A DNA stretch of 33,126 bases. Source: Denitrovibrio sp. GTDB lineage: Bacteria > Chrysiogenota > Deferribacteres > Deferribacterales > Geovibrionaceae. Where the stretch lies: positions 60,334 through 93,459 of the forward strand of contig PKTM01000027.1 of assembly GCA_002869145.1 (NCBI GenBank). The letters are read 5' to 3'. The translations under genes and the position numbers were made by a program. Under the pieces are notes generated by a model, which saw only the letters and a program-made list of their open reading frames with translations, was not told where the DNA came from and did no database searches. Below, piece after piece: positions 5,367-6,496 of this stretch. Within the stretch, counting starts at the first letter, position 1. The number at the start of each line of letters is the position of its first letter.

Positions 5367-5424
5367 CAGATAAATTTCTCAGGTGAAAATATATTTCATA
5401 TTAAACCTGAGCATGAGAAGGCAA

Positions 5425-5856
5425 ATGATAAAAGAAGAAGCGCTTAAGGTTAAAAAAGAAGGCTACAACTGTGCAGAGACTGTTATGATTATGACCGGGA
5501 GGTATTATCTTCCTGAGATAAACTTTTCTTATTCTAACCTTGTTACAGGTTTCGGCGGCGGAGTCGGAAGAAGCAGACAGGAGCTTTGCGGTGCTCTCAC
5601 AGGGTGCGTTGTTGCTTTGAATATGCTGATAGGAAGAGACAGTGCATCTGTTGAAGTGGATCCTATTCATGAGAAGATTGCAGCTTTTCGTGATGATTTT
5701 ATAGCATCATTTAACCATACTATTTGCGAAGATTTACGTGAAGGCTACGAAGGTGAAGAGGCAAAGAAGATGTGTCACAATATGACCGCAGATACAGTTG
5801 TAATGTTTTTTGAGTATCTTGAATCAATTGGCATTAAGCAAAAAGAATCTTTCTGA
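5425..5856 (+). CDS. C_GCAxxG_C_C family protein (putative redox-active)
   Basis: From the chosen ATG the protein is 143 residues. It shows the family's cysteine pattern: GYNCAET near the N-terminus, LCGALTGCVVALNML in the middle, and later cysteines in TICEDLR and KKMCHNM. The glycine-rich FGGGVGRSRQELCG segment is typical. Members are often proposed to be redox-active or metal-binding, but I know of no firm function. The frame is open back to a GTG at 5383 and includes an ATG at 5413. I chose 5425 because AGAAGG sits just before it and MIKEEALKVKKEGYNCAE matches the usual family N-terminus. The gene ends just before the hairpin-rich repeat region. Confidence 0.82.
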   Translation: MIKEEALKVKKEGYNCAETVMIMTGRYYLPEINFSYSNLVTGFGGGVGRSRQELCGALTGCVVALNMLIGRDSASVEVDPIHEKIAAFRDDFIASFNHTICEDLREGYEGEEAKKMCHNMTADTVVMFFEYLESIGIKQKESF

Positions 5857-5860
5857 CAAA

Positions 5861-5917
5861 TGATGCGAAACGCAAAATAATTCATTTTGTTCAGATGGAT
5901 TATTCTGTTTAATTAGT
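5861..5917. repeat. Intergenic direct repeat, copy 1
   Basis: This 57-base unit is matched by copy 2 at 5985-6041 with 51 of 57 positions identical. It opens with TGATGCGAAACGC, contains a 12-pair hairpin (5876-5887 with 5893-5904, two G-T wobbles) and ends CTGTTTAATTAGT. It begins 5 bases after the stop of the upstream gene. It could be a terminator duplicated in place or a dispersed element. Confidence 0.85.
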
Positions 5918-6002
5918 CTCAGGACGAGACTCACGGAGCTGTTGCGAAGCAATTTAGCGTAGTGTAAGTGAAGCATCAATGTATTGATGCGAAACGCTAA
6001 AT
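5915..6002 (+). other. Hairpin-rich segment between the two repeat copies
   Basis: Several stems can be read by eye. AGTCTC/GAGACT (5915-5920, 5926-5931) closes an AGGAC loop, the same loop as the copy 2 hairpin. TTGC-GAA-GCAA is at 5942-5952. ATTTAGCG/CGCTAAAT (5952-5959, 5995-6002) encloses the near-perfect palindrome GCATCAAT-GT-ATTGATGC (5973-5990). There is no convincing coding frame. The segment lies between convergent genes, so it may be a bidirectional terminator, a small RNA or a mobile repeat. GGA motifs in hairpin loops resemble CsrA binding sites, which is only a suggestion. Confidence 0.55.
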
Positions 6003-6041
6003 AATTCATCTAGGACAGATGAATTATTCTGTTTAATTAGT
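5985..6041. repeat. Intergenic direct repeat, copy 2
   Basis: This is the second copy of the 57-base unit. Its hairpin is perfect: AATAATTCATCT (6000-6011), loop AGGAC, AGATGAATTATT (6017-6028). The unit runs over the stop codon of the SspB-like gene on the minus strand (6037-6039). Five of its six differences from copy 1 lie in the stem or loop of the hairpin; those in the stem remove wobbles, so pairing is kept or improved. Confidence 0.85.
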
Positions 6042-6441
6042 TCTTCTTCTTTGGAAAAGTCAAAACCTTACCACCTGAGTCGTTGTCTGCCGGATCATCC
6101 ATAACGTTGTCATCTCCACTTTCAGAGCGCACAACAGGTTTAAAGCTGAACATAAACTCCGGTTTTACAGGGTCATTAAAGATAGCGCTGATGGCATTCA
6201 GTGGCACGTAAAGGCTTTCCCAGCTGCCGGAGAACTTCATATTAACTGTTATGCATTCTTTTTCAAGAGATAGCTTGTCGTATGAGTGAGGGCTGAAAAC
6301 GAGCACAATGCCGTTTTTTGACTCTTCACCTAAAAGTCCGCGAGAACCTATGATAAGCTCCGGGTGAGGCATAAGGTGGACATAAAACTTTTCGTATTCT
6401 TTCAGGATTTCCTGAAATATTGTTCTTCGAAATTCATTCAT
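6037..6441 (-). CDS. SspB-like ClpXP adaptor protein
   Basis: From the ATG at 6441 the protein is 134 residues. The central part reads NGIVLVFSPHSYDKLSLEKECITVNMKFSGSWESLYVPLNAISAIFND. This fits the SspB fold, where a beta strand with FSGxxxxxxVPLxAIxAI forms the substrate-tag groove. A long acidic linker (SGDDNVMDDPADNDSGG) and a short basic-hydrophobic tail (KVLTFPKKKN) follow, like the SspB tail that docks on ClpX. SspB delivers ssrA-tagged peptides to ClpXP. The frame is open 9 codons further up, but AAAGG placed 7 bases before 6441 favours this start. It lies downstream of the exonuclease gene on the same strand. The call rests on pattern and architecture. Confidence 0.65.
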   Translation of the reverse strand: MNEFRRTIFQEILKEYEKFYVHLMPHPELIIGSRGLLGEESKNGIVLVFSPHSYDKLSLEKECITVNMKFSGSWESLYVPLNAISAIFNDPVKPEFMFSFKPVVRSESGDDNVMDDPADNDSGGKVLTFPKKKN

Positions 6442-6496
6442 TGCTAAACCTTTAAATAAATATAACACCAGATTTTACATAGTCAATTAAAATGAA

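Follow-up and report, generated by a model that had tools for sequence, protein, structure and literature searches.

Introduction

Bacterial genomes contain short palindromic repeats, such as ERIC/IRU, RUP and REP/BIME, that lie between genes and have no enzyme of their own. Among insertion sequences, IS1549 and IS1634 have target duplications that vary from 8 to 514 bp, and the elements themselves measure 1.5–2 kb and carry a DDE transposase (PMC2266710). In fungal mitochondria, mobile ORFs bring a foreign C-terminus and leave the native C-terminus behind, which results in hybrid genes (PMC3630166). Lastly, the motif CAGGA(U/A/C)G is the repeat motif of CsrB (PMC7652899).

Here we analyze a segment between two convergent genes in a 33,126-nt stretch of Denitrovibrio sp. 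DNA, referred to throughout as the window. A previous sequence-only reading had described this segment as a duplicated 57-base unit with several hairpins and had considered a CsrA-binding sRNA, a repeat element or a bidirectional terminator. Our analysis indicates, with a probability that we put at about 60%, that positions 5913–6040 are a copy of an old, small, non-coding, non-autonomous and mobile-like family found at gene ends in the Deferribacterales.

Results

Anatomy of the locus

The direct repeat occupies positions 5861–5917 and 5985–6041, with 51 of 57 positions identical (89%), as first reported. It lies between an upstream gene of the C_GCAxxG_C_C redox family on the forward strand (5383–5856; Pfam PF09719, 2.2e-20) and a convergent gene of the SspB family (stringent starvation protein B) on the reverse strand (6037–6468; Pfam PF04386, 4.5e-9). 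On either strand, none of 200 dinucleotide-shuffled sequences folds as well as the segment (z −3.9 and −4.0). A complete, four-hairpin gene-end element of 128 nt runs from 5913 to 6040 on the forward strand (covariance-model match, 115 bits), and the scan of its own genome re-finds this copy at C12:66244-66373, about 5911–6040 of the window. The 57-mer is the 3′ part of the element, consisting of the right arm of hairpin c, hairpin d and the tail.

All parts of the element are given on the forward strand. Hairpin a (5916–5930) is GTCTC-AGGAC-GAGAC. Hairpin b (5932–5964) has the core TTGC-GAA-GCAA (5942–5952) and is closed by CAC (5932–5934) and GTG (5962–5964) around a GNA/GNA internal loop. 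Hairpin c (5973–5990) is GCATCAA-TGTA-TTGATGC, and hairpin d (6000–6028) has a perfect 12-bp stem and an AGGAC loop. Hairpins a, c and d are supported both by the fold and by covariation in the family. The stop codon of the convergent SspB-like gene, TAA, lies in the conserved 3′ tail, CTGTTTAATTAG (6029–6040). The AGGAC loops previously noted at 5921–5925 and 6012–6016 were confirmed by reading the sequence, and hairpins a, b and c account for the at least three further stems that had been proposed.

The upstream repeat, 5861–5917, is what is left, on the same strand, of the 3′ part of another copy that has decayed (right arm of c, a degraded hairpin d and the tail) and starts 4 nt past the stop of the C_GCAxxG_C_C gene. 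Differences between the copies had been said to keep or improve pairing. This holds for the perfect downstream stem and fails upstream, where the hairpin at 5876–5904 is a degraded form of hairpin d without the AGGA loop. The same arrangement, a 5′-truncated copy followed by a complete one, is also found at L003, L053 and L054.

Taken by itself, a 1.5-copy tandem repeat between convergent genes could be a local tandem duplication or a bidirectional terminator without wider meaning. No site resembling an intrinsic terminator (a GC stem followed by a T run) was found on either strand of 5700–6200, which leaves the terminator suggestion without support from the sequence. Additionally, about 25 dispersed copies contradict a purely local event, and the covariation described below also speaks against it. 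We give this explanation almost no weight.

The element family

BLAST of the segment against its own genome returned diverged matches at C23, C10 and C14 with one architecture common to them: hairpin a with an AGGA loop, TCACGGAGC, hairpin b, AGCGTAGTGTAAGTGAAGC, hairpin c, an AT-rich hairpin d with an AGGA loop, and CTGTTTAAT. In the consensus, hairpin a is of the GGCAC-AGGAT-GTGCC type, CAC-GGA-GC and GC-GGA-GTG enclose hairpin b, hairpins c and d follow, the latter with an AGGAC-type loop, and CTGTTTAATNAG ends the element, which is about 105–150 nt long.

A first covariance model, built from five copies, identified 21 copies in the own genome and 3–39 in each of 11 other genomes of the same taxonomic family. 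A second model, built from 77 copies, matched 27 places in the own genome, with E values of 3e-5 or better for 25. When 156 genomes were searched with the second model, matches were found in 12 of 12 genomes of the own family (f1) and in all 10 searched of genus g13 (family f6); the remaining matches were one in another genus of f6, one in f4 and one weak match outside the phylum. The repeat element named in the sequence-only reading is borne out by the roughly 25 copies in the genome. Records matching an exact-pattern scan were from Seleniivibrio and Deferribacteraceae. An exact-pattern match in a Clostridia MAG (L069) was rejected, as the rest of the element was absent.

Some elements are clustered. 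At L061 and L062, elements are paired in tandem with a period of 137–144 nt; the own genome also has a tandem pair, at C12:166373-166602. At L063 (G009:C2:325248-325584), two tandem elements have near-identical hairpins a–c and unrelated d regions, the second of which is degraded and extends into the ribosome-binding site of the next gene. In G006, two elements lie beside tRNA-Ile in an apparent rRNA operon spacer, with equal scores at both positions (C1:2287144-2287867 and 2848382-2849105; L064). The flanks of elements (L090, L091, L101, L104) often hold another dispersed repeat, of the GTCATTGCGAG...GAAGCAATCTC type, which is similar to the linker sequence of the elements.

Rfam gave no match in the window at gathering score and no CsrB/RsmX family match at the locus at permissive E-values; one sub-threshold rsmX match elsewhere scored 23.7 bits versus 56. 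Plasmid, phage and viral collections, each searched with one or two queries, also returned no match. In the literature covered, mainly outside subscription journals, we found no earlier description of the element, and the family is apparently new to description.

Covariation of the hairpins

Across the 77 copies, in an alignment fitted to the first model and hence biased toward that model's own pairs, 92.4% of pair cells are standard, versus 61% in shuffles and 39–46% with partners slid, and two-sided (compensatory) changes occur at 37 of 38 pairs. The helix of hairpin a is 99.8% paired, with two-sided changes at 6 of 6 pairs. The CAC/GTG helix (columns 27–29/110–112), which closes the conserved GNA/GNA internal loop, lies outside the fitting model and nonetheless covaries. 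By these covarying pairs beyond the fitted model, the element is a structured RNA family, and the earlier hint of selection on RNA structure is strongly supported. G-U pairs make up about 2% in the terminal hairpins a and d and about 10% in b and c. The low level in a and d would fit recognition at the DNA level, a role for both strands, or correction of one palindrome arm by the other.

Relation to CsrA

The loops of hairpins a and d match the CAGGA(U/C/A)G repeat of CsrB, GGA is present in both loops of 42 of the 77 copies, and csrA is found in all 12 genomes of the carrier family. These features would suit a model in which the two GGA loops bind a CsrA dimer and the dispersed copies act as a sponge or as 3′-end regulators of mRNAs. 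Against this, GGA is absent from the a-loop of 13 and from the d-loop of 25 of the 77 copies; ACGA or ATGA takes its place in many loops, with the flanking A and GA retained. csrA is also widespread among element-free genomes, and stem d, at 11–12 bp, is much longer than SELEX CsrA hairpins. Because GGA varies in both loops, CsrA binding is not what keeps the structure in all copies. From the loop sequences, CsrA binding may be a property of some copies, and we regard the sponge or regulator model as improbable. The CsrA-binding sRNA proposed in the sequence-only reading is a possibility: the loop motif and the presence of csrA stood, while the many loops lacking GGA, the long stem d and the dispersal of copies did not agree with it. 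The many GGA motifs that one sRNA of the CsrB/RsmZ kind carries were not found, as each copy has at most two AGGA loops.

Position at gene ends

Using a simple ORF rule, we found a same-strand upstream neighbor for 61 of 74 copies. The 5′ end lies −6 to +20 nt from the upstream stop in 33 of the 74, and none lies at 21–55 nt. In about 19 of 74 copies, as in the window, the 3′ end lies no more than 20 nt from a convergent gene's stop, and about 17 of 74 run in antisense orientation to the adjoining gene. Element ends are able to supply a stop codon. In G007 (C19:55671-55816, in L167), an element is antisense at the csrA 3′ end and its tail overlaps the csrA stop codon. Judging from sequence, the element is probably transcribed as a 3′ structure of mRNA.

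Duplications flanking the element

In about 22 copies, the last codons of the upstream gene recur right after the 3′ end of the element. The duplications are mostly 29–61 nt long (median 52 for the 19 tabulated lengths), and in nearly all of them the downstream duplicate begins no more than a few bases from where the element stops. In a random-pair control, the 99th percentile score was 18, and the maximum of 153 came from an accidental pairing of copies from one tandem locus. The gene-end copies differ at 46 synonymous versus 21 non-synonymous codons, clustered beside the element. At L075 and L105 every codon beside the element is synonymously changed, and at L083 five of the last seven are; toward the left, the duplicates are identical. 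Additionally, most downstream duplicates retain a sensible reading frame up to a stop. Because the differences are mostly synonymous and the frame is kept, this is not what would be expected if the downstream duplicates were dead sequence.

Tandem duplication of the gene end together with the element explains loci such as L081, L101 and L050. It was rejected as the sole cause, since the downstream copy at L052 keeps the native overlapping stop/start of both congeners. No consensus emerged when we looked for where the 5′ filler sequence came from.

At the 3′ end of rsmH, different elements are found in three genomes and the duplications begin at the same codon. Several gene ends are occupied in more than one genus; a rough Poisson estimate for at least 3 shared gene ends, which assumes 2,500 gene ends, gives P of about 4e-5. 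The rsmH case and the gene ends common to genera are consistent with spread between orthologous sites, and ancient residence with gene conversion is possible. An explanation built on such spread is recombination between species at orthologous gene ends, by coconversion or gene-end replacement, in which the last codons upstream would have been imported with the element from the orthologue of another species and the native C-terminus would remain downstream. The synonymous bias beside the element and the different elements at the same gene ends in several genera favor this explanation, and fungal mitochondrial mobile ORFs that replace a C-terminus provide a precedent (PMC3630166). However, neither a donor nor an endonuclease was found, the duplicates show no differences in their left part, and an ancient insertion followed by gene conversion could also account for the pattern. 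We consider such recombination unlikely. Its fullest form, a protein-free gene-end element that crosses species at orthologous gene ends with synonymous foreign last codons, leaves the native C-terminus downstream and has its arms rewritten pairwise while the loops stay fixed, strikes us as doubtful.

Empty sites, remnants and divergence

The orthologous gene ends of 13 own-genome loci were read in one or both congeners (G001 and G002). The element is absent in one or both at the window locus and at L052, L047, L050, L048, L003, L005, L015 and L054. At the window locus, G001 has overlapping stops of the convergent genes and G002 has a short spacer, both without an element; L052, L047 and L050 correspond to native junctions in both congeners. 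Remnants were recognized by reading at the L055 locus and, in G002, at the L002 locus, of which only L002 was scored by the model, weakly. Within the genus Seleniivibrio, remnants seem to be present at some of the sites that lack a full element (the loci of L104, L107 and L111). Gain and loss of the element both seem to occur, and loss through recombination between the duplicates would mimic a site that was never filled. At the L104 locus in G011, considered together with L178 (G007) and L179 (G010), hairpin a has a left arm and loop, AAACATCAGGAT, that coincide with the final codons of the upstream gene in element-free relatives; either this is a remnant, or the arm was acquired from the target.

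Mean divergence between copies is 45–46% within a genus versus 49% between genera. For nine duplication-flanked copies (G000–G002), no dispersed full-length sibling was found in nine genomes of the family; their best partial siblings reach 74–77% over about 60–115 nt, and higher values only over less than 50 nt. Three more copies (G009 and G011) have no close sibling among the collected copies, their own genomes being outside the sibling search. Because dispersed copies lack near-identical siblings, the pattern is not one that recent copy-and-paste predicts.

Such deep divergence, with pairing intact in nearly all copies, would agree with a resident functional RNA, that is, vertically inherited 3′-UTR structures selected by the host for mRNA 3′-end processing or stability. 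Their scattered distribution would then stem from repeated loss, and gene conversion would keep the direct repeats alike. Elements or remnants at guaB-guaA, rsmH and the L002 locus in several species, together with the observed loss and decay, add to the case. Most own-genome loci are nevertheless empty in both congeners, the duplicated gene ends are freshly identical, copies sit at unrelated genes, and some are antisense to the gene beside them. Vertical inheritance of a host-selected RNA is accordingly a minority view for us and an unlikely one.

Candidate mobilizing enzymes

The reverse transcriptase domain RVT_1 is present in 4 of 10 family genomes searched and is not universal. Y1_Tnp is present in 4 of 12 and is absent from G003 and G011, both of which have many copies. 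No autonomous version of the element was identified. With this distribution of the two surveyed domains, a REP/RAYT repeat and a retroelement spreading by target-primed reverse transcription were both rejected. A MITE of a DNA transposon, which would have the terminal inverted repeats of a resident transposase and a short target duplication, is a possible alternative; the ends of the element are hairpins with no evident common terminal inverted repeat, and the duplications are long. At G000:C10:66960-67256, a RAYT-sized Y1 transposase-like ORF (219 aa) lies about 2 kb from the L003 element and from a tRNA gene whose anticodon-like loop is UCA and which is probably tRNA-Sec.

Discussion

The element behaves most like a non-autonomous mobile repeat. 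The hallmarks that we looked for to recognize a REP/RAYT repeat, a retroelement, a CsrB-type sRNA or an intrinsic terminator were absent. A mobile-like origin is favored by copy number and presence throughout the family, by covariation that includes a helix outside the fitting model, by the narrow placement at upstream stops, by duplications that start sharply at the element 3′ end, by the empty orthologous sites with the native stop/start kept downstream at L052, and by the rsmH elements. Weighing against it are the lack of a universal enzyme among the surveyed domains, divergence within genera nearly as high as between them without close siblings, and precise loss between direct repeats, which also yields empty sites, some of those in Seleniivibrio being remnants. 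Under the mobile-like reading, new copies would enter at gene ends and duplicate the 3′ end of the target, which would spare both the target gene and its neighbor. Sense copies would be transcribed as a structured mRNA 3′ end. Copies would later be lost by recombination between the direct repeats or would decay, as at 5861–5917, and the mobilizing enzyme is presumably supplied in trans or has been lost.

These results define a structured repeat family in a phylum poor in RNA annotation, with a covariation signal unusually clear for a dispersed bacterial repeat. They also present two puzzles: insertion sites turn over despite the lack of close siblings within a genome, and the duplicated gene ends differ chiefly at synonymous sites. 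If gene-end replacement were true, a very small element could pass from one species to another while encoding no enzyme. Lastly, isolated AGGA hairpins should not be taken for CsrA sRNAs.

Compared with the sRNAs CsrB, CsrC and RsmX/Y/Z, the element shares CAGGA(U/A/C)G motifs in hairpin loops (PMC7652899) and differs in having two such loops per copy, copies scattered at gene ends and a variable GGA. Like IS1549 and IS1634, it is flanked by direct repeats much longer than the bacterial norm (PMC2266710). Unlike them, it is about 130 nt long, its duplications are mostly 29–61 nt, and no transposase was identified for it in a survey that covered Y1_Tnp. The order of gene end, element and native C-terminus downstream, with synonymous differences between the copies, is that of fungal mitochondrial mobile ORFs (PMC3630166), whereas the present element is bacterial, about 130 nt, non-coding, without an endonuclease, and found at many genes. 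ERIC/IRU, RUP, REP/BIME and other MITE-like repeats share with it a short, non-coding, palindromic and intergenic nature, tens of copies and the lack of an enzyme (PMC2817692, PMC2229807). In contrast to these repeats, the element has neither near-identical copies nor a universal REP-type Y1 transposase, and is set apart by four separate covarying hairpins, placement at stop codons, and gene-end duplications of 29–61 nt.
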